The notes below the pieces were generated by a model that worked only from the letters and a program-made list of their open reading frames with translations, made no database searches and had not been told where the DNA came from. This document shows, piece by piece, positions 13,378-49,467 of a stretch of 64,000 bases of DNA. The position numbers were made by a program, and so were the translations under genes. This DNA is from Ignavibacteriota bacterium (GTDB lineage: Bacteria > Bacteroidota > Ignavibacteria > SZUA-365), in NCBI GenBank assembly GCA_016218045.1, contig JACRFB010000039.1:1-64000 (forward strand), given 5' to 3'. Within the stretch, counting starts at the first letter, position 1; every line of letters begins with the position of its first letter.

Positions 13378-16300
13378 ATGACGAGATCCTTTGCTTCGAT
13401 ACCGCCCGTCCGTAACAGCGGCCTTCCGCGTTTGGCCCTCCTTGTGGCCATGCTCGCTGCGCCGCTTGGAAGCGCCGTGTTTGCGCAGGAACTGCGCGTG
13501 CTTGCATCCGGAGCGGACGGAATCACCATCGAATACAGGCCCGTCGTGCGACTGCGGTCGTTCAGCGACGCGGGGGTCGCCTATGTGCGCCCCGAATTCG
13601 CGGAGGCCGCGTCCGTCGCTCCGTTAAGTCCCGGCATTCCCGATCTCCAATTCCGCGGCGTGCTGCTCGCATTGCCAGGTCTCGAGGGGCACAGCGTGAC
13701 AGTACTGGCCGCGGACTATGAGGACACACACAACACCGTGCTCGCTCCCGTGCCGCGGCGCTTCCGCGGAGACGATGGCCTCGTCACCTCGTACACGCGC
13801 GGCGCCGAGTATACGCGCCGCGGGCTGCTGCCGGAGTCGGTCGCGGAGCTTGCGGACGCGGGTATCGCGCGCGATCGTTTTCTCGCCACACTCCGAGTGT
13901 ATCCCTACGCCTTCGATGCGGCCGCGGGCCAGCTTCGGCACTACACGCGGCTCGTTGTGCGTGTGCAGTTCGGGCCGGCCGATCCACGTCTGACCTCGGC
14001 GGGCCGCGCGGGCGAGTCCTTCGGCGGGACAGTGGTGAACGAACAGAGCGCACGTGGCTGGCGCATCGCGGCGCAGGCGCCGCTGCGCAAGACACAGACG
14101 GCCTCGCTCGCCAGCGGCGACTGGTACCGCATCGAAATACCGCAGGACGGCGTGTACCGGCTGACGAAGGCATGGTTCACCTCGGCCGGCATCCCGATCT
14201 CGTCTGTCGATCCGCGCAGCATCCGCATATTCGGACAAGGTGGTCGGGAATTGCCCTTACGCCTCTCATCGCCGCGTCCCGACGACCTGCAGGAAATCGC
14301 CATCGAGGTAAGCGGCGAAAGCGACGGGCGTTTCGACGACAACGACGCGGTGACCTTCTACGGACGAGGGAACAGCGGCTTTGTGTGGGACACCGTGGCC
14401 GGACGATACACACACACGATCCATCGTTTCGACGCGGCCAACGCGTATCTGTTGACCTTCGGCGGCGCCGCGGGACGGCGGGTCGAGGCGCAGCCGTCGC
14501 TCAACGAGGCGAATCCCTACACGCCGCAGTGGTTCACGGGCAGGGAATTTCACGAGGAGGAGGCCGTCAACCTGATCTCCTCCGGAAAGATGTGGGTGGG
14601 CAAACGTATACCGCCCTCGAGCGGAATCAACACGCAGGTGGTGATGAAGAAGCTGGAGGGCCTCGTGCGCGAGCAGCCCGTCACCTACCGCGTGAAGTTG
14701 TATGCGCAGTCGGAAGTGGCGCACTCGTTTTTGCTGTCCGACGGACAGACGCTCGGCAGCATTCCGATGACCACTGTCGCGTTCTCGACCGACCAGGACG
14801 ACATCGCATCCGGCTCGGGCGTGCTGACCTTTTCACGTCCGGGCGATCTGCCCGAGGACCGCAGTTCGCTGAAGATCGAATACAATGTGTCCGATCCCGA
14901 CCGCAGCCGCGGCGCATTCGTCGATTGGATCGAATGGTATTACGCGCGCCGTTTCACCGCGTCGGGTGACGTGCTCGACTTCGGCGCGCCCGACACCAGC
15001 ACCGTCTGCGCGTTCGAGATACAGGGCTTCAGCAACAGCGACGTGGCGGTGTACGACGTGAGCATCCCCTGGCGTGTGCGGCGCATCGCCGATCCGGCGG
15101 TCAGCGGAGGCACCGTGCGTTTCCAGGCCTCGTCGCGCCGGGGCGCGCCGCCGCAGTATTACGCCGTCGCGGCGAACGCCGTGCGTCAGCCCGCGACGCC
15201 CACGCGTCTGTCGAATTCCGATCTCGCCGTGACGCAGGGTGCGCAGTATGTGATCATCACGTCGCAGGATCTGGCTCCGGCCGCGGAACGCTTGAAACGG
15301 CATCGCGAACGTCCGGGCGAGGATGCGATCACAAGCAAGGTTGTGACCCTGCCCGAGATATACAACGAATTCAGCAGCAGTGTGAAGGATCCGGTTGCGA
15401 TCAGGAATTTCCTCTCGTACGCCCTGCGCTCCTGGACCGTGAAACCGAAGTACGTGCTGTTCTTCGGCGACGGGCATTATGATTACCGCAATTACGGGAC
15501 GGATGAAAAGATCGTCGTGCCCGTGTGGGAGTCCGAAAACTCGATCAACCTCATGGCCTCGTACGTGACCGACGATTTTTACGCGCAGATATCGGGCGAC
15601 GACGCGCTGGTGGACATCGCAACGGGCCGCCTGCCCGTGCTCGACACCGCCGAGGCGATGTCGATCGTGGACAAGATCATCCGCTATGAGAGTGATCCCG
15701 ATTTTGCGCCGTGGAAAAACCGCGTGACCTTCGTGGCCGACGACGGACTCACGACACGCATCGATGACGGACCGACACACACGGCGCAATCCGAGGACAT
15801 CGCGCGCTCGCTGCCCACCGGCATCGAGCAGGAGAAGGTGTACATCGTGTCGTACCGCACCGAGATCACGGCCGAAGGCCGTCGCAAGCCCGACGCAAAT
15901 CAGGCCATCATCGACCGCATCAACGAGGGCACGGTGGTGATAAACTACACCGGCCACGGCAGCGAAGCGGTATGGGCGCATGAACACGTGTTTGTCACCG
16001 ACGTGACCGTGCCCATGCTGGCCAATGTGACACGCCCCACTTTCCTCGCGGCGGCCACGTGTACGTTCGGACTCTACGACAGGCCCAAGCTGCGCAGCGG
16101 CACCGAGGCCATGGTCACAAAGCCCGAAGGCGGGGCCATCGGCGGACTCTCCTCGCCGCGTGTCGTGTATTCCGGACCCAACTCGAATTTCAACCAGACC
16201 TTTTTCGACAACCTGTTCGCAAACGGGCGCGAAACCGACGGCCGCGCGAAGCGCCTGGGCGACGCGATCTTTTCGACCAAACAGCGCTGGTACAACGATG

Positions 16301-17430
16301 CCGGCTACGAAAAATTCCATCTCTTCGCCGATCCGGGTCTGCGCCTCGCGTTTCCGCGCTACAGGTGTTCCATCGATTCGATACTCGTGAACGGCCAGGC
16401 CGCAGGATCGGGGCAGGTGCAGCTCAAGGCGCTCTCGCGTGTAACGCTGAAGGGATCCGTGCTGCGTCCCGACAGCACACGGTGGCCCGATTACAACGGC
16501 GTCGCGACCGTCAGTCTCTATGATGCAAAACGCAGCATCCCCGTGCCGCTCGAGGGCTGGGGCGGCTTCTCGTACGGCGTGCAGGGCGGCTTGCTCTTCC
16601 GCGGTGAAGCCACGGTGGCCGACGGCGGCTTCACCGTCACGTTCCCGATTCCGAAGGACATCTCCTACGAGAACAACAGCGGACGGCTTGCCGTGTATTT
16701 CGACAACGACGCCGTGGACGGTGCGGGGTTTGCGACGAACTTCACCGTGGGTGGATCCGACACCAGCGCAGTGACCGACCGCGTCGGTCCGGAGATCCGC
16801 CTGTTCATGGATCAGCGGAGCTTCCTGCCCGGCGATGTTGTAAACGAATCGCCCCTGCTCATCGCCGATCTGCGTGATGAAAGCGGCATCAATACGACGG
16901 GACTCGGCATCGGACACAACATCGAGGCCTGGCTCGACGGCAGCGAGGCGAGTCTGGTGTTGAACGCGTTTTACACCGGCGACCGCGACTCGTATCAGCA
17001 GGGAACCGTCCAATACCAGTACCGGCGGCTCACGGAAGGCACACACACCCTGCGCCTGCGCGCGTGGGACATTCACAACAACTCGTCCATCGCCGAGACA
17101 CATTTCTCCGTCGCCAACAGCGCCGGACTTTCGGTGCAGGACGCGTATCCATATCCGAATCCGATGCAGAACACAACCACGTTCACGTTCACGCACAATC
17201 AGAGCGCGGCGGTGAAGGTGGAGATCAAGATATACACCGTGGCCGGGCGTCTTATCCGCAGCATCGACGCGGGGGAGACCGCCGAACGATTCGTGCGTGT
17301 GCCCTGGGACGGGCGTGACGAGGAGGGCGACACGCCGGCGAACGGGACCTATTTCTACAAGATCGTCTGCCGTACAGCCGACGGGCGGCTCGGATCCGAG
17401 CGTATCGGCACGCTGGCGATACTACGCTGA
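13378..17430 (+). CDS. porU: Type IX secretion sortase PorU-like (peptidase family C25)
   Basis: 1350 residues. Signal peptide to about residue 36 (VFAQ). The central gingipain-like C25 domain carries the catalytic pair His860 (in NYTGHGSEAV) and Cys895 (in AAATCTFGLYD). The C-terminus has a Por-type sorting/CTD region (YPYPNPMQNTT; NGTYFYKIV). PorU removes the C-terminal signal from type IX cargo at the cell surface and joins the cargo to lipopolysaccharide, working with PorV. The length exceeds a plain gingipain and fits PorU. It lies between a flippase and porV, supporting the call; a C25 effector protease is the alternative. Confidence 0.88.
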   Translation: MTRSFASIPPVRNSGLPRLALLVAMLAAPLGSAVFAQELRVLASGADGITIEYRPVVRLRSFSDAGVAYVRPEFAEAASVAPLSPGIPDLQFRGVLLALPGLEGHSVTVLAADYEDTHNTVLAPVPRRFRGDDGLVTSYTRGAEYTRRGLLPESVAELADAGIARDRFLATLRVYPYAFDAAAGQLRHYTRLVVRVQFGPADPRLTSAGRAGESFGGTVVNEQSARGWRIAAQAPLRKTQTASLASGDWYRIEIPQDGVYRLTKAWFTSAGIPISSVDPRSIRIFGQGGRELPLRLSSPRPDDLQEIAIEVSGESDGRFDDNDAVTFYGRGNSGFVWDTVAGRYTHTIHRFDAANAYLLTFGGAAGRRVEAQPSLNEANPYTPQWFTGREFHEEEAVNLISSGKMWVGKRIPPSSGINTQVVMKKLEGLVREQPVTYRVKLYAQSEVAHSFLLSDGQTLGSIPMTTVAFSTDQDDIASGSGVLTFSRPGDLPEDRSSLKIEYNVSDPDRSRGAFVDWIEWYYARRFTASGDVLDFGAPDTSTVCAFEIQGFSNSDVAVYDVSIPWRVRRIADPAVSGGTVRFQASSRRGAPPQYYAVAANAVRQPATPTRLSNSDLAVTQGAQYVIITSQDLAPAAERLKRHRERPGEDAITSKVVTLPEIYNEFSSSVKDPVAIRNFLSYALRSWTVKPKYVLFFGDGHYDYRNYGTDEKIVVPVWESENSINLMASYVTDDFYAQISGDDALVDIATGRLPVLDTAEAMSIVDKIIRYESDPDFAPWKNRVTFVADDGLTTRIDDGPTHTAQSEDIARSLPTGIEQEKVYIVSYRTEITAEGRRKPDANQAIIDRINEGTVVINYTGHGSEAVWAHEHVFVTDVTVPMLANVTRPTFLAAATCTFGLYDRPKLRSGTEAMVTKPEGGAIGGLSSPRVVYSGPNSNFNQTFFDNLFANGRETDGRAKRLGDAIFSTKQRWYNDAGYEKFHLFADPGLRLAFPRYRCSIDSILVNGQAAGSGQVQLKALSRVTLKGSVLRPDSTRWPDYNGVATVSLYDAKRSIPVPLEGWGGFSYGVQGGLLFRGEATVADGGFTVTFPIPKDISYENNSGRLAVYFDNDAVDGAGFATNFTVGGSDTSAVTDRVGPEIRLFMDQRSFLPGDVVNESPLLIADLRDESGINTTGLGIGHNIEAWLDGSEASLVLNAFYTGDRDSYQQGTVQYQYRRLTEGTHTLRLRAWDIHNNSSIAETHFSVANSAGLSVQDAYPYPNPMQNTTTFTFTHNQSAAVKVEIKIYTVAGRLIRSIDAGETAERFVRVPWDGRDEEGDTPANGTYFYKIVCRTADGRLGSERIGTLAILR

Positions 17431-17512: not shown

Positions 17513-18676
17513 ATGACCATCCACACAACACGCCTGACCGCCGCCGCCGCCCTTGTCCTGCTCGTCATGAGCTGCGGCGCGTCGCTGCTGCACGCGCAGG
17601 GGGCGGCCAGCACTGCCGTGCCCTTCCTGCTCATTTCGCCGGGAGCGCGCGCGAGCGCGACGGGCGAGAGCGGTGTCGCCGTTGCCGACGATGCATCGGC
17701 CATTTTCTGGAATCCGGCCGGACTCGGCTTTCAGAGCGGCATGGAACTGAGTCTGAGCCATTCGAACTGGCTGCCGCAGTTCCAGCAGAGCGACCTGTTC
17801 TACGAATACGCGAACTTTAAAATGGGCGTTCCCTCCATCGACGGCACCATCGGCGCGGCGCTCACCTTTCTGAATCTTGGCGAGTTCGAACGGCGCGACG
17901 AGGCGAACAACATGCTCGGGCGCTTCAAGAGCTTCGAGGTGGCGTTCACCGGCTCGTACGGCACACGCATCGACGAGGACCTGTCGCTAGGTATCGGACT
18001 GCGCATCATTCACAGCAGTCTCTCGCAGGTCGCGACCGCCAACGAGCAGGGCTCGGGCACGGCGACCGCCGTGGCGGGTGATCTCGGCGTGCTGTACCGT
18101 CCGTCGAAGTTCACATTGCCGTTCACCGACGTGGATCTGGGTGATCATTTCTCGGTGGGTCTGGCCTTTTCGAACATCGGTCCGTCGATCACCTACATCG
18201 ACGAGCAGCAGTCCGATCCGCTGCCGACCACGCTGCGTCTCGGGCTGGCCTTCGATCTGGTGAAGGAAGAGTACAACCGGCTGACGTGGACCACCGACAT
18301 CACGAAGCTGATCATTCACCGCACCGGCGACAAGGCCGACAACTTCATTTCGGCGCTCTCGAAATCGCAGCTCGGCGACTGGAACAGCTACACGCTGGGC
18401 ACGGGTATCGAGTACTGGTACTCCGATTTTGTGGCGCTGCGTTTCGGCTTCTTCCACGAGGATCCGAACTGGGGCAACCGCCGCTTCCTCACCTTTGGCG
18501 CGGGCGTGCGGTACGAGATTTACGGCTTCGATTTCAGCTACATCTCGACCGACATTTCGAGCGAGAGGAGTCCGCTGGCCGACACACTCCGGTTCACACT
18601 CTCGATTCTCTGGGATCGTGACACGACTCCGCCGGACGACGGCACCACCATTCCCGCGGACGATTCGCGGAACTGA
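17513..18676 (+). CDS. porV: Type IX secretion outer-membrane protein PorV-like
   Basis: 387 residues, a FadL-like outer-membrane barrel of the PorV/LptO family. Signal peptide to about residue 29, then the family-typical opening (VPFLLISPGARASATGESG; ASAIFWNPAGL). PorV shuttles cargo from the translocon to the PorU sortase on the cell surface. Length agrees with the family. Its place directly after porU makes the assignment strong. A long hairpin follows the stop. Confidence 0.9.
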   Translation: MTIHTTRLTAAAALVLLVMSCGASLLHAQGAASTAVPFLLISPGARASATGESGVAVADDASAIFWNPAGLGFQSGMELSLSHSNWLPQFQQSDLFYEYANFKMGVPSIDGTIGAALTFLNLGEFERRDEANNMLGRFKSFEVAFTGSYGTRIDEDLSLGIGLRIIHSSLSQVATANEQGSGTATAVAGDLGVLYRPSKFTLPFTDVDLGDHFSVGLAFSNIGPSITYIDEQQSDPLPTTLRLGLAFDLVKEEYNRLTWTTDITKLIIHRTGDKADNFISALSKSQLGDWNSYTLGTGIEYWYSDFVALRFGFFHEDPNWGNRRFLTFGAGVRYEIYGFDFSYISTDISSERSPLADTLRFTLSILWDRDTTPPDDGTTIPADDSRN

Positions 18677-18713: not shown

Positions 18714-18761
18714 CGGGGCTGTCCGAACGTGTCGTGACACGACACCCCCCGGACAGCCCCG
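18714..18761 (+). terminator. Long hairpin between porV and the M6-like gene
   Basis: A perfect 12-bp outer stem (18714-18725 with 18750-18761, GGGGCTGTCCG / CGGACAGCCCC) encloses a perfect 6-bp stem GTGTCG / CGACAC with a TGACA loop. Only a weak T-rich tract follows, so it could be an attenuator or mRNA 3' stabiliser rather than a full terminator. Confidence 0.5.
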
Positions 18762-18835
18762 TCCTTATTCCGCGCGCGCAGGCGCCGCGCGCGGACGGTT
18801 CACAGATTCGAGAGCAACACGGGGCACAGACCGGC

Positions 18836-21800
18836 ATGGCACGCACAGCAATCGCGATTCTCCTCCTCGGACTCGCGCTCACCGCACACGCGGCGGCGCA
18901 GGCGCCGGCGCCTCGTCTCGCGCATCGACTCGCGGCTCCCGGCGCGGCGGGTCCCGCCCCGCGCGCGGCGCTGCCCGACACCGTGCGCGTCCTCGCCCTC
19001 ATGGCGGAATTCCAGCCCGACGACGATGCGCGCACCAGCGGCACCGGGCGTTTCAACACCGTCTTTCCCTACGATTACGGCGCGGACATCATCGACGCGT
19101 TTCCGCACGACCGCGCATACTTCCTCGCGCATTTGCGCTTCCTCGAGAACTACATCGCGAAGTCGTCGGGGGGCCGCACACGCGCCGTGTCGCGGCTGCT
19201 CGATTCCGTCGTGACACTGCCGAAGAACATCCGCGGTTATTCCTATCGCAAGGGCGAGACCGAAAAGCCCGTCGCGGATCTGGCCGTGGACGCCTGGACG
19301 GCGGCCGACCGCGTGCAGCCCGCGGTGGACTTCTCGGCCTACGACATGTTTGTCATCTTCCACGCGGGGCGCGGCCGCGACGTGGATCTCGCGAGTTTAC
19401 AAGGTTCCGATCCAACACCGTACGACATCCCCTCGCTCTCGTTCACGCTGGGCGCCTTCCGCAAGCAGCTCGGCGCGGATTTTCAGGGCATCCCCGTCAA
19501 CGGCGGAAAATATCGGATCACGAACTCCTCTATTCTTCCCTCCACCGATTCCCGCGAAATCCCCTTGCTGACGGGGCAGACCGCGCTGCTCGAGCTTTCG
19601 ATCAACGGACTGCTCGCGGCAAGTTTCGGCACCTACGCGGGGCTGCCCGACCTCTTCGACACCAGGACGGGGCGCACGGGCATCGGGCGTTTCGGCCTGA
19701 TGGACGCCGAGTCGATTTTTGCATTCGGCGGCATCTGTCCCCCCGCGCCGTCGGCGTGGGAGAAGCAGTATCTGGGATGGACCACGCCGCGTTCGGCCGT
19801 TCCGGGCAAACGCGAATACCTGCTCTCCGCGTACCGGACCGACCAGCCCTCCACCGCCGACATCCTGCGTGTGCCGGTGACCGATGCCGAGTACTGGCTG
19901 CTGGAAAACCGCCAGCGCGATCCCGGCAACAACGGGCAGCGCGTGACCTACGTGTCGGGCGGGCAGGAAGTGACCGTGTCGTTCCCGAAGGACACGACAG
20001 GTTTTACGAACGACAATATTTCGGCGCTAAAAGGCGTGGTGGTTGACGTCGAGGATCTCGACTGGAGCCTGCCCGGCGGCACCGTGATCAGCGACACACG
20101 CGAGGCGCGCGTGATGGGCGGCTTGCTGATCTGGCACATCGACGAATCCGTCATCAATGCAGGTCTGGCCGACAACACCGTGAATGCGGCGCCGAAACAC
20201 CGGGGCGTGGACCTCGAGCAGGCGGGCGGGCCGCAGGACATCGGCGAGACGATACAGTCGGTGCTCGGCTCGAGTGTCGGCACAGGCGGACCGCTCGACT
20301 ACTGGCATCGCGATAATCTCTCGCCGCTGTACAAGAACAGTTTCGGCGCGGGCACCACTCCCGACACACGTTCGGCGGACGGATACTTCACACACGTGAC
20401 GATGGACAACATCAGCACGGCAGGACCCTTGATGTCGCTCGACGTTGCGGTGGGTGACAACGTGATCACACCCATGAGCGGGTGGCCCGTCGATCCGCGC
20501 GATCCGGTCGACGGCCGGCGCGTCAGTTTTGTGCAGACCGCCGATATCGACGGCGACGGCGCGCACGAGATCGTGGTTGCGACACACGCGGCCGACAGCA
20601 CCTCAGCCGATCCCGCCAACATCTACGTGTTTGAACAGGACGGCAGCAATTACCGTGGTGGCGGCATGCCGCGAGTTGCGGCCACACTCACGCAGGTGTC
20701 GCGTATTCTTGAAGCGCCCGCGATCGGTGATGCCAACGGCGACGGCGTTCTCGACATCGTCGTACACGCGAGCGCCGATCCGGCGGGAAAGATGCGCATG
20801 CTGGTGGTCGTTTCGACACGTGACGCCGACAACAACGGCGCGCTCGACGAAGTGACGCGGCACATGTACGCCTACGCATCCGAACAATACCAGTCCGATC
20901 TGAGCGGCTGGATGGTGCGGGACGGATCGATATTGTACCGTGTGTTCCACCTGCCGGCGCCACTCTCATCGATGATCCATCCCGACACGCTGTTTATCGT
21001 GGGAAAAGAGAACCGCGTTTTTCCCATGACGCAGGGCACGGTTCCCGGATCCGGCATTGCCGCGACCGGTGATGCGGACGTCATCTACAGCGGTGAGTTC
21101 CTACGGCGCAGCGACGGAACAGTTGTGGCGTCTTCCGCAAGTCCCGCGCTATCGGCGCGGCGCTCGCTTCCGGGTGTGTGCAGCGTAGCCGACTTCGACG
21201 GGAACGGCGCGTCTGACGGCGCCAGCGCGGCACACGGCCTGTCGATTGACTTCCGGAATCCTCGCTGGAGCAGCACGGATTTTTCGCGGCAGATGCCGGG
21301 CGGTACTTCGCCCGAGATCGCCGATCTCGCCGCCGCGGATGCCGACGGCGACGGACGCAACGATCTGCTTGTGAGCGACGGCAGCGGTGTCACGGCCATG
21401 AACTTCGCTCTCTCGACACTGGACTATTATCCCGCGAGCGGCGGGACGCGCTACACACTCGCGGCGCGCCTTGCGGGCGACACACGCGACGCGCTGCTGC
21501 GCGTGGGTGCGGACGCTCTGACGCAGCTCGGCACACGCGCAAAAGCGGCCGAAGGATTCCCGGTGCCGCTGCCGGGGCACACGAGCGTGTTACTCTTTCC
21601 CGTCGGCAGCACAAATCCCACACTCGGCGTGGCCGTGGGCGGTACCGACGGACTCGTATATCTCTACAACACCGCGGGCCGGCTGGCACCGAACGGTCTT
21701 GTATGGCGCAGCAAAGACGGCGACGAGACCCGCGCGCGGTACGCCGCTCCGTCGCCGTACACACAGACGACACGCTCCGAATTTTTCCCCGCCGAGAGGT

Positions 21801-22063
21801 GTTACAACTGGCCGAATCCCGTGTACGATCCCGTGACGAAGGTCCGTTTTTACGTCAGTGAAAACGCCGATGTGACCGTGAAGATCTACGACCTGGCGGG
21901 CGCGAAAGTGGGCGAGCTGCATTCCAAAGCCGCGGGAGGTGTCGACAACGAGATCGACTGGAACGTGTCGGACGTGCAGACCGGCGTGTATCTCGCGCAT
22001 GTCAAGGCCGAGGGCGCGGGGCGGAGCGGCGAGAAAATCATCAAGATCGCGGTGGTGAAATGA
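18836..22063 (+). CDS. M6-like protein lacking the zinc motif, type IX sorted
   Basis: 1075 residues. Signal peptide, then a region resembling peptidase M6 (immune inhibitor A family): the usual HExGH...GLPDLYDT segment is recognisable but reads AASFGTYAGLPDLFDT, so His, Glu and His are replaced by Ala262, Ser263 and Thr266. The LMD that follows is kept. Next come three FG-GAP-like calcium-type repeats (DIDGDGAHEIVV, DANGDGVLDIVV, DADGDGRNDLLV) and a Por-type C-terminal sorting domain (WPNPVYDPVTKVRF). It should be secreted and attached to the surface but cannot bind zinc in the normal way, suggesting a binding role. It ends with ATGA overlap into the next gene. Confidence 0.8.
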   Translation: MARTAIAILLLGLALTAHAAAQAPAPRLAHRLAAPGAAGPAPRAALPDTVRVLALMAEFQPDDDARTSGTGRFNTVFPYDYGADIIDAFPHDRAYFLAHLRFLENYIAKSSGGRTRAVSRLLDSVVTLPKNIRGYSYRKGETEKPVADLAVDAWTAADRVQPAVDFSAYDMFVIFHAGRGRDVDLASLQGSDPTPYDIPSLSFTLGAFRKQLGADFQGIPVNGGKYRITNSSILPSTDSREIPLLTGQTALLELSINGLLAASFGTYAGLPDLFDTRTGRTGIGRFGLMDAESIFAFGGICPPAPSAWEKQYLGWTTPRSAVPGKREYLLSAYRTDQPSTADILRVPVTDAEYWLLENRQRDPGNNGQRVTYVSGGQEVTVSFPKDTTGFTNDNISALKGVVVDVEDLDWSLPGGTVISDTREARVMGGLLIWHIDESVINAGLADNTVNAAPKHRGVDLEQAGGPQDIGETIQSVLGSSVGTGGPLDYWHRDNLSPLYKNSFGAGTTPDTRSADGYFTHVTMDNISTAGPLMSLDVAVGDNVITPMSGWPVDPRDPVDGRRVSFVQTADIDGDGAHEIVVATHAADSTSADPANIYVFEQDGSNYRGGGMPRVAATLTQVSRILEAPAIGDANGDGVLDIVVHASADPAGKMRMLVVVSTRDADNNGALDEVTRHMYAYASEQYQSDLSGWMVRDGSILYRVFHLPAPLSSMIHPDTLFIVGKENRVFPMTQGTVPGSGIAATGDADVIYSGEFLRRSDGTVVASSASPALSARRSLPGVCSVADFDGNGASDGASAAHGLSIDFRNPRWSSTDFSRQMPGGTSPEIADLAAADADGDGRNDLLVSDGSGVTAMNFALSTLDYYPASGGTRYTLAARLAGDTRDALLRVGADALTQLGTRAKAAEGFPVPLPGHTSVLLFPVGSTNPTLGVAVGGTDGLVYLYNTAGRLAPNGLVWRSKDGDETRARYAAPSPYTQTTRSEFFPAERCYNWPNPVYDPVTKVRFYVSENADVTVKIYDLAGAKVGELHSKAAGGVDNEIDWNVSDVQTGVYLAHVKAEGAGRSGEKIIKIAVVK

Positions 22064-25000
22064 TTCGAGAATCCAGAATTCAGAATTCAGAATTCAGAAT
22101 CCGGAATTCCGAATTTTGGATGAAGTGTGGTTGCACCGGCACGTGGGCGGGTTCGGCAACGGCGGTCACCGGGGGGCTGTTACCTGTCTCCCGTCTCCTG
22201 ACACCGATCTTCGTCATCCTCGCACTTCTAGCGCCCACTGTCGCGCAGGGCCAGCCCGACGAATACAGCGCACCGGAGAAGGATTGGTTCACAATCGAGG
22301 CCAAACATTTCCGCGTAGTGTATCACGAAGGATCGGAGCGCACGGCGCGCGCGGCGGCAAAGGTGGCCGACGAGATTTACGGCCCCATCACATCGCTGTA
22401 CGGGCACGAGCCCGACGAGCGGGTGAGTCTGATCATCAAGGACATCTCCGACTATTCGAACGGCGCGGCGTACTTCTTCAACAACAAGATCGAGATCTGG
22501 GCATCGCCGCTGGACTTTGAACTGCGCGGCACGCACAACTGGCTGCGCAACGTGCTCGCGCACGAATTTACACACATCGTGCAGATGCAGGCGGCCATGA
22601 AATGGGGCCGGCGTCTGCCCGCGCTCACCCTGCAGTGGTTCGGCTACGAGAAGGAGCGCCGCAGCGACGTGTTGTACGGGTATCCGAACGTGCTCATCTC
22701 CTATCCTCTGCCCGGCATCATCGTGCCGCCCTGGATGGCCGAAGGCACGGCGCAGTACATGCGGCATCAATTCGGCTACGAGCACTGGGATTCGCATCGC
22801 GACATGATCCTCCGCAGTTACGTCCTGTCGGATTCGATGTTGAGCTGGCCCGAGATGGGCGCCTTCGGCAAGACGAGTCTCGGCAACGAGAGTGTGTACA
22901 ACGCGGGGTACAATCTCACGCGCTACATCGCGCGCAAATACGGCGAGAAGGCCGTGGTCGACATCACGCGCGCGATGGGCAAGACCTTCGTCTTCACCAT
23001 CGACGCAGCGATCAAGAAGGCGATCGGCATTGATGGGGCGGATCTGTACCGCGAGTGGGCTACCGATCTCCGTGCCGACTACGCCCGGCGCATCGCGCCG
23101 GTGCTCGCGCGCCGCGCAGAGGGCGAGATCATCGCCGCGACGGGATTCGGCAACTTCCATCCCGCGTATTCGCCCGACGGGAAAAAGATCGCGTACGTGT
23201 CGAACAAGACGTCGGACTACTTCGGGCAGTCAGCAGTCTATCTCTACGATGTGGAAAAGGGCAGCGAGGAACTGCTCGTTGCGGGTGTGCGTTCGGCTCT
23301 CACCTGGTCGCCCGACGGTGCGCGGATAGTGTACTCCAAGTACAATCCCCCGAGCGTGTACGGCCATCTGTACTACGATGTGTATGAATATACCCTCGCG
23401 ACCAAGGAGGAGAAGCGCATCACCGAAGGGAAGCGCGCATTTAATCCCGCACTCTCGCCTGACGGCACGCGGCTGGCCTATGTGGCGGCGAAGGACGGAT
23501 CGGTGAACCTGTGGATCGCGGATGCCGACGGCGGCAACGCGCGGCAGGCGACCACCTTCACCGACGGCGAGCAGGTCTTTACCCCTGCGTGGGCGCCGGA
23601 CGGCTCGCATCTGGTCTTCGGATATTCCGCGCGCGCGCAGCGCGGCGTCGCGCGGGTGAACAGCGACGGCAGTGGTTTTGCGCTGCTTGTCGACGGTGGC
23701 GAGTCTGACGCGCGTGATCCGAAATACAGCGCGGATGGGCGGCACCTCATCTACGCGTCCGACCGCACGGGCATCTTCAACATCTACCGCCGCGAGCTGG
23801 CGAGCGGCCGCGACGAACAGCTTACGAACGTGGTGGGCGGGGCCTTCATGCCGGCGGTGGACGCGCGCGGGAACGTCGCGTACGCGGCCTACACCGCGTC
23901 GGGCTACAAACTTGCGCTGCTGCGCGTCCCCGCGCCGCTCGCGCTCGCATCGAACGACTACATTGCCGCGGGCGAATTTGCTCCGGCGATCGCAAGCGCC
24001 GACCAGGACGCGTGGGAGTGGAATCGTTTGAGCGCGTACAACGACCGCGGCCTGCCCGCTCCGGCCGCGAAGCCCTACAAGACGATTTTCCAGAGCATGA
24101 TGCTGTTCCCGGTGCTGCGCTTCGACACGTACAATCCCGACAACACCGGCCTCGCACTGCTGAAACCCGGCCTCATGTTCTACTCCAGCGACATCCTCGG
24201 GCGGCTCGAGATGCTCGGCAGCGGCGCCATCAACATCAAGGGCGAACGCGACCTGTTCGCGAGCTTCACATACAAGGACCGCCTTCCGCTGCTCGCGTCG
24301 CTGGGCGTGTTTCCCGCCGTCTCGCTCGACGTCGTGAATGTGACACGCAAAACCTCGTCGAGTATACAGCTCCCAATCGACACCGTCGGAGTGGACGTCT
24401 CGTTCAACCTCCTCGAATTCGGCGTGCGTGTGCAGCACAATCTTTTCTCGAGCCACACGCAGCTCGATCTCGGATACAGGCACAGCCGCTACACCAGCAC
24501 CGTGGGCAGCTTCCGCAATCCCGATACCGACGGACTCGTGCCCGCCCGCGACAACTTGTACCTCATCGGCAACGACCTCAGCGCGGCGGTGCGGCATCAT
24601 GCGATGGAACCCACGCGCGACGGCGAGATCAATCCCGTCGGCCTGCGCCTCGGCCTGTATTACGACTTCGAATTCAACCGTTTCAATCCCAACGGCGACT
24701 TCGACTACGACGCCTCGACGGGCATGATCGTGCCGCGCTACACCAATTTCGATTTCCACCGCCTCGAGACCGTGCTTTCGCTTGCGGCGCGCCTGCCCGG
24801 CTGGCAGCACACGCTCGCGGTGCGCCTGCGCGCGGGAAGCATACTCGGCGCTCCCGTCGACGACTTTTTCAATTTTTACGCGGGCGGCATCACCGGCATG
24901 CAGGGATACAGCTACTACGCCCTCGGCGGGAACGAGGTGTATCACGCGAACGTGACGTACCGCTTCCCGATCATCGCGAGCATGGATTTCAGACTCGGAC

Positions 25001-25281
25001 ATCTTTTATTCGACAAGCTGTACGGCGGACTGTTCTTCGACGCGGGCGACGCCGTCGCCGATCCGTCGCAGTTCACGGCCGGAACGATGAAGACCGACGC
25101 GGGTTTCGAACTGCGTCTCGAGACCTACTCGTTCTCGATGTATCCGACACGCATCTTTTTCAGCGGGGCGTACGGACTGACGGACTTCACGCGCACGTTC
25201 AACTTCCGCGACGTGCGGTACGGGCGGGAATGGCGCTGGTACGTGGGCGTGCTGTTCGGATTCGACCTGTCCGACAAGTAG
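22060..25281 (+). CDS. Gluzincin-like peptidase with PD40 propeller and outer-membrane barrel
   Basis: 1073 residues. A peptidase-MA-type zinc site, HEFTH (168-172), is followed by PPWMAEGTAQY with Glu228 as the likely third ligand. A TolB-like propeller of about five PD40 repeats follows (YSPDGKKIAYVS, LSPDGTRLAYVA and others, about 360-600). The last 430 residues are beta-rich, like a BamA/D15-type barrel. It is likely a periplasm-facing or surface envelope protein. The start is unclear: the ATG at 22060 overlaps the previous stop (ATGA), but the first 20 codons lie in a heptanucleotide array; the next ATG is at 22120. The hydrophobic signal region itself includes a second array (22177-22204). 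Confidence 0.75.
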   Translation: MIRESRIQNSEFRIRNSEFWMKCGCTGTWAGSATAVTGGLLPVSRLLTPIFVILALLAPTVAQGQPDEYSAPEKDWFTIEAKHFRVVYHEGSERTARAAAKVADEIYGPITSLYGHEPDERVSLIIKDISDYSNGAAYFFNNKIEIWASPLDFELRGTHNWLRNVLAHEFTHIVQMQAAMKWGRRLPALTLQWFGYEKERRSDVLYGYPNVLISYPLPGIIVPPWMAEGTAQYMRHQFGYEHWDSHRDMILRSYVLSDSMLSWPEMGAFGKTSLGNESVYNAGYNLTRYIARKYGEKAVVDITRAMGKTFVFTIDAAIKKAIGIDGADLYREWATDLRADYARRIAPVLARRAEGEIIAATGFGNFHPAYSPDGKKIAYVSNKTSDYFGQSAVYLYDVEKGSEELLVAGVRSALTWSPDGARIVYSKYNPPSVYGHLYYDVYEYTLATKEEKRITEGKRAFNPALSPDGTRLAYVAAKDGSVNLWIADADGGNARQATTFTDGEQVFTPAWAPDGSHLVFGYSARAQRGVARVNSDGSGFALLVDGGESDARDPKYSADGRHLIYASDRTGIFNIYRRELASGRDEQLTNVVGGAFMPAVDARGNVAYAAYTASGYKLALLRVPAPLALASNDYIAAGEFAPAIASADQDAWEWNRLSAYNDRGLPAPAAKPYKTIFQSMMLFPVLRFDTYNPDNTGLALLKPGLMFYSSDILGRLEMLGSGAINIKGERDLFASFTYKDRLPLLASLGVFPAVSLDVVNVTRKTSSSIQLPIDTVGVDVSFNLLEFGVRVQHNLFSSHTQLDLGYRHSRYTSTVGSFRNPDTDGLVPARDNLYLIGNDLSAAVRHHAMEPTRDGEINPVGLRLGLYYDFEFNRFNPNGDFDYDASTGMIVPRYTNFDFHRLETVLSLAARLPGWQHTLAVRLRAGSILGAPVDDFFNFYAGGITGMQGYSYYALGGNEVYHANVTYRFPIIASMDFRLGHLLFDKLYGGLFFDAGDAVADPSQFTAGTMKTDAGFELRLETYSFSMYPTRIFFSGAYGLTDFTRTFNFRDVRYGREWRWYVGVLFGFDLSDK
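22068..22116. repeat. AGAATTC heptanucleotide array, 7 units
   Basis: Seven adjoining 7-base units (AGAATCC, AGAATTC x3, AGAATCC, GGAATTC, CGAATTT) begin 5 bases after the stop of the M6-like gene. Read in the frame opened at 22060 they encode a 7-residue periodic peptide (RIQNSEF, RIRNSEF). A matching 7-unit array lies at 49419-49467. Confidence 0.9.
22177..22204. repeat. CTGTCTC heptanucleotide array, 4 units
   Basis: Four 7-base units CTGTTAC, CTGTCTC, CCGTCTC, CTGACAC. They lie inside the signal-peptide-coding part of the gluzincin-like gene and encode LLPVSRLLTP. Confidence 0.5.
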
Positions 25282-25356: not shown

Positions 25357-27420
25357 ATGAAAAAACACTTCCTCCGGTCCTTTTTCCACGTCGAGTTTGC
25401 CGTCGCGTCCGCGATCGTGCTCATACTCGCACGCCTGTTCAGTTCGTTGTCGGACTGGCTTCCCGAGACCGACGACACCTCGTTTCTGAATCCGATATTC
25501 GGGCGCATCGATTTTCTGAACATCGAGGATGTGAGTCTCGACGCCATCTTTGCGATCCGCGACATGGAGTGGGCGGATCCGCGCATCGTGGTGGTGAACG
25601 TCGGCGCGGTGGCTCCGGTGCCCGACGGAAAAATCGCGAAGCTGCTGTACAAGCTGCAGGTTTACGAGGCGCGCGCGGTGGGCATTGACGTGATATTCGA
25701 CACGTATCATTTCGAACGCTTCCCCGAGGAGCGCCGCGGCGAGATCGACCTGATCAAGCAGGCGTTTCTCGACAATCCGGGCACCGTGCTGGTGAACGGC
25801 TACGATCCGGAGACGCTGCAGCCCGCGCTCGAGCTCGATCCCGACGTTTCGGCCGCCGTATCACGCTACGGTTTTGCGAATCTGCAGAAGGACGATGACG
25901 AAGTGGTGCGTCGTTTCTGGCCCGTGCGCACCGTGGGCGGACGGCTGCAGCAGGCCTTTCCGATCGCGGTGTTATCCGCGTACGATTCGGCTCTGGTGGC
26001 CCCGTTGCTGGCGCTCGGCGAGAGGCAGCACATCATTGCGTACGCGGGCACCTACGACCAATTCCAGACCATTCCCATCGACGATGTGATCGACAGCGAC
26101 GTGTACCGCAGAATGCTGCGCGGGGCCATCGTGCTGGTCGGTTACGTGAACGAGGGCGGATTTGTGTATCTGAACGATACACATCGCACACCCATGGGCC
26201 GGAAGATCGGATACGAGGGTCCCGACATGGCGGGCATCCTGGTCCATGCCAACATCATCAACATGCTGCTCGCCGGGCGTTTCATTACACCATTGCCAGT
26301 GACCGCCGACTGGGCCCTGGCGTTTGTGTTCGCCTACGTGAGCATCGCGCTGTACCGCGTGCTACGTACAAAAACCACCACACGTGGCGGCCTGGCGGCC
26401 CTCATATCCGTGACACTGATCATCGAAACCGTCATTGCGTTTTTCCTGCCGATCATCGCGTTCTTCTTCTTCCAGACAAAAATCTCGTACGACACCCTCG
26501 CGGCGGCCGTGCTGTTGTTCATCCCCGCGGGCGCGCTCACCAACAAGGCGCGTTTCATGCTGCTGAAGCTGCGCGTGAAGCGACGTTTCCGCGGGGCCAC
26601 GTCGCCCGCGCCCGCGCTGCTCATGGCGTCGTTCGACGACGTCGAGGCCTTTCCCGCGCACGCGCGCCTGCTGCACGCGGCAGAGTACCTGCTGCATTTC
26701 GCCTTTGCGCTGCGTTGCGCCGCGCGCGCGCGGAGAGGGGAGGCCCTCCCGGCCGGATGGAGGCATCCCGATGCGCGCGTATGGGCGGCCGCCCTGCCCG
26801 AAATCGCCGCATGTATCGACGGCGACGCACCACATGCGCTCGAGAGGCAGTACTTCCTGAAATTCCTCGACGGACGCAAGGAGCAATTCCTGCGCGAGAG
26901 CGCCGTGCGCGACCTCTTCCTCACCGCGCAGCTCGAAAATTTCAACGAGTTCTTCTTTTTCGAGGAGTGGGAGGTTCTGCTGCCCCATGTGCTGCGCCTC
27001 TACGGCGAGACCCTGGCGGACACGCACAGCGTGCGCCTGTACACGGCAGAATCCGATGCAGACGGACGTGTCGTGCCGCACCCCTTTCCTTCCCCGAAGA
27101 AAAAGACCGATGAATCCGAAATACCGGCGGTTGACGGACTCGCGCCCGGACTCTATTTTACATCGGTCGAAGATCCCGAAGTGTTTGTGCCGCTTTCGCC
27201 GTTCTGCGTTGTCGCGGAATGCAAGCTCCATCGCACGCGCGAACTCTTCGTGTTCAAGGCGCTGATACAGCGGCAGTTCGACCTGCCGCTGCAGCCCGTG
27301 TACGCAGGCGAAACGCTCGCCTGCGACCCCGTCCTGCCGCGGGGCATCGTTGCGCAGCTCACGCGGAGTGCCGCGGGAGAGACGCAGGCAGAAGCACCAG
27401 TCGCACAGGAGGACCAATGA
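25357..27420 (+). CDS. CHASE2-domain membrane sensor protein
   Basis: 687 residues. One N-terminal helix (about 12-30), an extracytoplasmic CHASE2 domain (about 50-305, with IVVVNVGAVAPVPDGKIAKL, ARAVGIDVIFDT and a DMAGILVHANIINMLL exit), then about three membrane helices (about 310-395). The cytoplasmic tail of about 290 residues is not a kinase, cyclase or other output domain I recognise. CHASE2 domains sense extracellular cues. Its stop overlaps the FecR gene by four bases; CHASE2 and FecR genes are often paired, suggesting one system. Confidence 0.8.
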   Translation: MKKHFLRSFFHVEFAVASAIVLILARLFSSLSDWLPETDDTSFLNPIFGRIDFLNIEDVSLDAIFAIRDMEWADPRIVVVNVGAVAPVPDGKIAKLLYKLQVYEARAVGIDVIFDTYHFERFPEERRGEIDLIKQAFLDNPGTVLVNGYDPETLQPALELDPDVSAAVSRYGFANLQKDDDEVVRRFWPVRTVGGRLQQAFPIAVLSAYDSALVAPLLALGERQHIIAYAGTYDQFQTIPIDDVIDSDVYRRMLRGAIVLVGYVNEGGFVYLNDTHRTPMGRKIGYEGPDMAGILVHANIINMLLAGRFITPLPVTADWALAFVFAYVSIALYRVLRTKTTTRGGLAALISVTLIIETVIAFFLPIIAFFFFQTKISYDTLAAAVLLFIPAGALTNKARFMLLKLRVKRRFRGATSPAPALLMASFDDVEAFPAHARLLHAAEYLLHFAFALRCAARARRGEALPAGWRHPDARVWAAALPEIAACIDGDAPHALERQYFLKFLDGRKEQFLRESAVRDLFLTAQLENFNEFFFFEEWEVLLPHVLRLYGETLADTHSVRLYTAESDADGRVVPHPFPSPKKKTDESEIPAVDGLAPGLYFTSVEDPEVFVPLSPFCVVAECKLHRTRELFVFKALIQRQFDLPLQPVYAGETLACDPVLPRGIVAQLTRSAAGETQAEAPVAQEDQ

Positions 27421-28328
27421 AAACTCTCGCATACGTCGTGGCACTGCTGCTGACCGTCGCCGTTTCGGCGCGGGCGCAGGATTCATTCATGGTGATGAGT
27501 GTGAAGGGCAAGGCCGAAGTGTCGGCCAAGGGCAAGACCTGGAAAAAGGTGGAGGTGGGACAGGTGTTCGGGAAGCGCGATGTGATCCGCACCTCGTTCG
27601 CCAGTTATGTGAAGCTGATGATGAACGAGGACCGGCTCGTCAGCATCGACGAAAACACCACCAAACCTCTTGCCGAATTTATCCGCGCGAAGTCGTCGCG
27701 TGGCGAGGGCTCCGCGGGCAAGATTCTTCAATACGCCGCGGCACAGATGACAAAGACGAGGCAGAAACAGGGCGGAAACGACTTCGGCGCCGTGCGCGGC
27801 GGCATGGAGGTTTTTGCCGCGGTGTTTCCGATGCACGCCGTGCTGTCGCCCGAACCGCGCTTTGAATGGATCGACAGCGATTCGACCGGCAACTACGAGC
27901 TGCTGATCCTCGACGATCAGCTCGCGGCGATCAGCCGCAAGCAGGTGCAGAACGTCCAATTCGCGCTCGATGTGGAGCCCGGCCTGTTGAAACCGGGCGC
28001 GACATATCATTGGCAATTGGCGCGTGTGAACGATCCGCAGAGCGCGCAGTGGCAGACCTTCACCGTGCTGCCGCAGGACACGATCAATTTTGTGCAGCGC
28101 GAACTGGAGTCGCTCGACCGCGAACTCACCTCCATGAAGGCCGACGACGTGACCCGCCATCTCATCCGCGCCATTTACTTCGAACGCCGCGGACTCTTCG
28201 GCGATGCCTTCCGCGAATACAAAACGACGGTGCGCCTCGCGCCCGAAATCCAGGAATACCGCGATATGCTGCGCGGCCTGCTTGTTTCGATGCGCCTGAT
28301 GAACGAAGAGGAGTATCTGCTGCGGTAG
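27417..28328 (+). CDS. FecR-domain protein paired with CHASE2
   Basis: 303 residues with a signal peptide (1-20, SARAQ) and an N-terminal FecR-like domain (VMSVKGKAEVSAKGKTWKKV; GDVIRT-type motif as KRDVIRTSFASYVKL). The C-terminal part (about 220-303) is helical and may be a TPR-like unit. It starts with ATGA overlap on the CHASE2 gene and is probably an exported partner. Ligand and signal are unknown. Confidence 0.7.
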   Translation: MKTLAYVVALLLTVAVSARAQDSFMVMSVKGKAEVSAKGKTWKKVEVGQVFGKRDVIRTSFASYVKLMMNEDRLVSIDENTTKPLAEFIRAKSSRGEGSAGKILQYAAAQMTKTRQKQGGNDFGAVRGGMEVFAAVFPMHAVLSPEPRFEWIDSDSTGNYELLILDDQLAAISRKQVQNVQFALDVEPGLLKPGATYHWQLARVNDPQSAQWQTFTVLPQDTINFVQRELESLDRELTSMKADDVTRHLIRAIYFERRGLFGDAFREYKTTVRLAPEIQEYRDMLRGLLVSMRLMNEEEYLLR

Positions 28329-49419: not shown

Positions 49420-49467
49420 GAATCCAGAATCCAGAATTCAGAATCCAGAATTTAGGATTCAGAATTT
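49419..49467. repeat. AGAATCC heptanucleotide array, 7 units, at the hydG stop
   Basis: Seven 7-base units (AGAATCC x2, AGAATTC, AGAATCC, AGAATTT, AGGATTC, AGAATTT). The first base is the last base of the hydG TGA. It matches the 22068-22116 array in unit, unit number and placement. Confidence 0.9.

Follow-up and report, generated by a model that had tools for sequence, protein, structure and literature searches.

The locus described here raises the question of what a surface-sorted protein of the peptidase M6 type does once its zinc site has been lost. The window, which is the whole stretch of DNA that was analyzed (64,000 nucleotides, positions 1 to 64,000 of contig JACRFB010000039.1 from an Ignavibacteriota bacterium), encodes four genes of interest, all on the forward strand, as are the gene parts given below. 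In order, these are porU (13378–17430; NF033707, 975.9 bits, cut-off 420), the sortase gene of the type IX secretion system (T9SS); porV (17513–18676; PF19572, 1.3e-32; NF033709, 304 bits, cut-off 90; NF033710, 244.5 bits, slightly under the cut-off of 250), the gene of its outer-membrane shuttle; a pseudo-M6 gene, M6i (18836–22063); and a peptidase gene with an intact HEFTH motif. At a probability of about one half, M6i is a non-catalytic protein with an M6 fold that has been inherited vertically, uses the T9SS for export, is associated with PorV and forms one unit with the HEFTH peptidase.

Gene and Domain Architecture of M6i

M6i has 1075 amino acids and matches the NCBIfam model NF052323 with 735.6 bits (cut-off 600). 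The gene is enclosed in a longer open reading frame (18734–22063) with a GTG start at 18734; the likely start is ATG at 18836, with MARTAIAILLLGLALTAHAAAQA as the signal peptide. The signal peptide is followed by an M6-like domain (18902–20470, the region used as domain model), a β-propeller with FG-GAP repeats (20471–21790), which is the least conserved part, and a T9SS type A C-terminal sorting domain, or CTD (Por_Secre_tail, 21809–22042; PF18962, 2.1e-8; TIGR04183, 2.9e-7). A preliminary description of this DNA had proposed calcium-type repeats and a sorting domain, and domain searches found both; the surface sorting proposed with them is made probable by the PF18962 and TIGR04183 matches.

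Many further CTD proteins are encoded in the genome of the window, which, together with the type A CTD and FG-GAP propeller of M6i, would fit an ordinary T9SS cargo, for example an adhesin or a binding protein at the surface, lying in the por operon by chance. This explanation is quite improbable, because M6i is a single-copy gene with a fixed position and a distribution identical to that of one peptidase, and because no part of the protein is more conserved than its dead site.

Loss of the Zinc Site and its Conservation

Active M6 peptidases carry the motif HExxHxxGxxD, the Asp of which we take to be the third zinc ligand. The corresponding stretch of M6i (19607–19660, GLLAASFGTYAGLPDLFD, in the frame of the open reading frame 18734–22063) contains ASFGTYAGLPD, in which only the Gly and the Asp of the motif are kept. 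The dead site, ASFGT (19619–19633), stands at the aligned columns where active M6 has HEFGH, and four active M6 proteins from genomes of relatives have HEFGH or HEMGH there. It is flanked downstream by GLPD (19640–19651), with the Asp at the third-ligand position, and by GRFGLMD (19685–19705), a Met-turn-like segment found in the alignment. Both parts of the preliminary description of this site, namely loss of the zinc motif and retention of its flanks, are therefore borne out.

The alignment of related M6-like proteins proposed there was carried out with 57 M6i members from more than 30 taxonomic families, and the loss is common to all 57, which rules out a recent or local event. The position of the first His is occupied by Ala (50 members), Ser (4) or Gly (3), that of the Glu by Ser, Asn, Met, Thr, Gln or Ile, and that of the second His by Ser, Asn or Thr, whereas the Asp of GLPD (57/57) and His176 of HAGxGRD are invariant. 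A conserved HExxH elsewhere in the protein as the true site is also ruled out, as no HE..H was found along the whole length of the M6i of the window or of the other 56 members. The two invariant residues could be taken to mean that M6i is still an enzyme, acting through another metal site or another chemistry; with small or uncharged residues at both His positions and at that of the catalytic Glu in all 57 members, and with no other HExxH, this is highly improbable.

In the 57-member alignment, the site block (residues 255–300) has 3.36 bits per column and is the most conserved part of M6i; the stretches upstream and downstream of it have 2.38 and 2.34, and the propeller 1.26. The dead site is thus under constraint and not decaying. 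Neither chance nor an artefact of sequencing can account for it, since this block is inactive and strongly conserved throughout the phylum. The CTD of M6i has about 2.5 bits (2.48–2.50), the M6 domain 2.45 and the CTD of PorU 2.54; the value for M6i is as would be expected if its CTD were kept rather than discarded, which is suggestive only. In a tree, the M6i members form one clade with a long stem, apart from the active M6 proteins. Judging from these sequences, the loss of HExxH is ancestral, at the base of the M6i family, and the site reflects an old shift in function rather than decay. M6i is thus of interest as a pseudoenzyme in which an anciently inactivated site is more conserved than the remainder of the protein.

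Predicted Fold and Family Membership

The preliminary description supposed that the fold is kept, and suggested structure prediction as a check. An AlphaFold2 model of the whole M6i, built from the alignment, has a pLDDT of 89.3 and a pTM of 0.88, and the dead-site segment is still a helix in the model. For the M6-like domain folded alone (pLDDT 92.8, pTM 0.93), an M6 fold is predicted, and the top Foldseek match is Bacillus immune inhibitor A2 (InhA2; 4yu6, TMq 0.53), with E-values from 2.5e-15, that of 4yu6, to 1.8e-14 for 4yu6 and 4yu5. With the whole model, propeller matches dominate, the top one being PorZ (5m11), and the M6 domain does not appear. A PDB sequence search with the M6i of the window alone gave no match.

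The family is already named, NF052323 (T9SSA_dep_M6i) being an equivalog model for a "T9SS-dependent M6-like inactivated metalloprotease." M6i has the same architecture and inactivation, scoring above the cut-off, lacking HExxH at the M6 site and carrying a type A domain; nothing that defines the family differs, and the protein of the window sits in a divergent Ignavibacteria branch. With peptidase family M6 (immune inhibitor A; TIGR03296, PF05547), M6i shares the predicted fold, the third-ligand Asp and the Met-turn-like segment, but it lacks HExxH and falls below both family cut-offs: TIGR03296 gives 45.4 bits (cut-off 110.8), and Pfam Peptidase_M6 (PF05547) matches weakly in 16 of the 57 members and is absent in the M6i of the window. 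The PorZ model NF052228 gives 12.3 bits, far below its cut-off of 260. In the literature collection that was searched, no paper cites NF052323 or describes the M6i family, which is curated but apparently unstudied, and the name of the model is silent on the link to porV and on the peptidase partner.

Linkage to porV

In all 56 loci with a visible upstream side, porV lies immediately upstream of M6i on the same strand, with a median gap of 23 bp. This adjacency persists when porU has the opposite orientation (locus L094), is not found beside porV (L101, L102) or is missing (L100). In comparison, porU and porV adjoin in 50 of 51 loci, the order porU-porV-M6i is found in most loci, and M6i adjoins the HEFTH gene in 47 of 48. 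The tightest physical link of M6i is therefore that to porV.

In P. gingivalis, binding to PorV keeps PorU at the cell surface, and PorV also carries cargo to the attachment complex (PMC5562754). Type B cargos of the T9SS are often encoded next to their own shuttle, which is of the PorP/SprF kind (PMC12618676). M6i resembles such cargo in being a CTD protein whose gene adjoins that of a PorV/PorP-class shuttle, but its shuttle is PorV itself and its CTD is of type A. The case for M6i being a component of the T9SS rather than a cargo is built on gene order and co-occurrence.

The HEFTH Peptidase and its Co-occurrence with M6i

The next gene (22060–25281) encodes a gluzincin-type peptidase with a TolB/PD40 propeller and an Omp85-like barrel. 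In an alignment of 26 homologues spanning the phylum sample, H168, E169 and H172 of the HEFTH motif (22561–22575) are invariant (26/26), as is E228, the Glu of AEGTAQ (22741–22743), which stands 56 residues past the second His and is likely to be the third zinc ligand. The protein thus has the HExxH and downstream Glu of gluzincins, and the HEFTH motif that had been read as intact is so. Pfam Peptidase_MA_2 gives 26.2 bits, below its gathering score of 32.4, and the protein is no relative of M6. The peptidase domain precedes the Omp85-like barrel and may therefore face the periplasm, which would put it across the membrane from a secreted M6i and counts against joint action of the two. Arrays of a 7-base unit (CAGAATT/C) occur at 22067–22118 and 49425–49460, and the window contains 12 matches to it where 0.06 would be expected by chance. 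The first array stands at the start of the HEFTH reading frame, where it is translated as NSEFRIRNSEF, and the annotated start of the gene is therefore probably wrong, ATG at 22120 being the likely one. The order of the two genes that follow the HEFTH gene (25357–28328) is conserved within the same taxonomic family and in one sister family, and no further.

The preliminary description also suggested that M6i and its neighbor act together. The two proteins occur in an identical set of 115 of 297 Bacteroidota genomes, each being present in all 115, which agrees with a functional pair. Among 61 near relatives, both are found in the same 45, excluding one marginal, propeller-only HEFTH match. These calls are subject to the score thresholds and to the assemblies, of which many are metagenome bins, although most genomes of the sample are more than 95% complete, and related genomes are not independent. 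On a PorU gene tree of 80 genomes, an approximate proxy for the species tree from which one row (G084, an extraction artefact) was pruned, joint presence or absence of the pair changes about six times. Distance-matrix correlations are high for every gene pair (0.84–0.93) and are therefore uninformative. The co-occurrence could come in part from shared operon ancestry, which is insufficient alone because the two genes lie on different contigs in several lineages. The pairing of M6i with the HEFTH peptidase looks unreported.

This strict one-to-one co-occurrence with an invariantly intact peptidase, which persists where the genes are unlinked, would also be expected if M6i were a regulator or chaperone of the HEFTH peptidase that either keeps it inactive or brings substrate to it, PorV being no more than the export route. 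Peptidase paralogues that have lost activity commonly serve as regulators. The HEFTH protein, however, is unrelated to M6; by gene order, the link of M6i to porV is no weaker than that to the HEFTH gene, and it is the HEFTH gene, not porV, that separates from M6i. A regulatory role of this kind is accordingly doubtful.

Independence from PorU and PorZ

PorU is present without the pair in 91 of the 297 genomes, and the pair is therefore not a core part of the T9SS everywhere. Conversely, nine genomes have the pair without PorU (G108, G127, G152, G163, G213, G244, G275, G306 and G313). PorU, PorZ and PorU2 were sought in these nine genomes and none was found, the PorU model matching only CTD-like fragments, while the SprA translocon is kept in all nine and PorV is also kept where it was looked at (L100). 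By their gene content, these genomes (e.g., that of L100) are candidates for a sortase-less type IX system, and since SprA and the pair persist in them although PorU, PorZ and PorU2 are all missing, the pair is independent of the sortase step. An obligate link of M6i to PorU is ruled out by the same nine genomes.

PorZ (NF052228; PDB 5m11), which belongs to the T9SS attachment complex and is the top match of the whole-model search, is like M6i a surface propeller protein with a T9SS CTD and a functional link to Por proteins; PorZ, however, has two propellers and no M6 domain. In the genome of the window, PorZ is encoded elsewhere (G000:C63), and it is present in 58 of the 61 relatives with or without M6i, which rules out M6i as a substitute for it. 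The likeness to PorZ and the prevailing order porU-porV-M6i might suggest that M6i is a subunit of the attachment complex that works with PorU, taking a role like that of PorZ in the cleavage and anchoring of cargo. This is unlikely, since M6i does not replace PorZ, is kept in the nine genomes after loss of both PorU and PorZ, and is missing from 91 of the genomes that have PorU.

Possible Function of the Pair

The reading of M6i as a non-catalytic, PorV-associated partner of the HEFTH peptidase can be extended to a model of its action. M6i would be exported by the T9SS and very likely remains beside PorV at the outer membrane, where its propeller and CTD may hold it. The dead cleft may then bind polypeptide without cutting it, whether emerging cargo, a CTD linker or the partner itself, and the HEFTH protein may cut or perform quality control. 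The pair is probably a unit that works with PorV and the secretion channel, in which M6i would bind or act as a scaffold and its neighbor would cut. Inactivation, fold, constraint, adjacency to porV, co-occurrence and independence from PorU and PorZ were computed, and the binding, docking and cutting are what we infer from them.

A bolder version of this model, in which the pair is an unrecognised part of the T9SS in those Bacteroidota lineages that have it, with a PorV-docked pseudo-peptidase and an active outer-membrane gluzincin that receive or process cargo and are able to replace a lost PorU/PorZ branch, is tentative and would need to overcome considerable doubt. Most knowledge of the T9SS comes from Porphyromonas and Flavobacterium; if the bolder version were true, the accepted list of its parts would be incomplete for a large part of the Bacteroidota. 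The PorU-less genomes that have the pair offer natural systems for separating the roles.

Several relatives of these proteins were observed elsewhere. Active M6 paralogs with HEFGH or HEMGH lie at L090:1512–4196, L091, L092 and L093:786–3632, and the two that were scanned (L090 and L093) also carry T9SS CTDs. The genome of the window encodes three large PorU2-like proteins (1716–1821 amino acids; G000:C15:14115–22002 and G000:C45:41285–43825), which score below the cut-off of NF052324, and genome G055 has a tandem duplicate of porU (L072:10282–18606).
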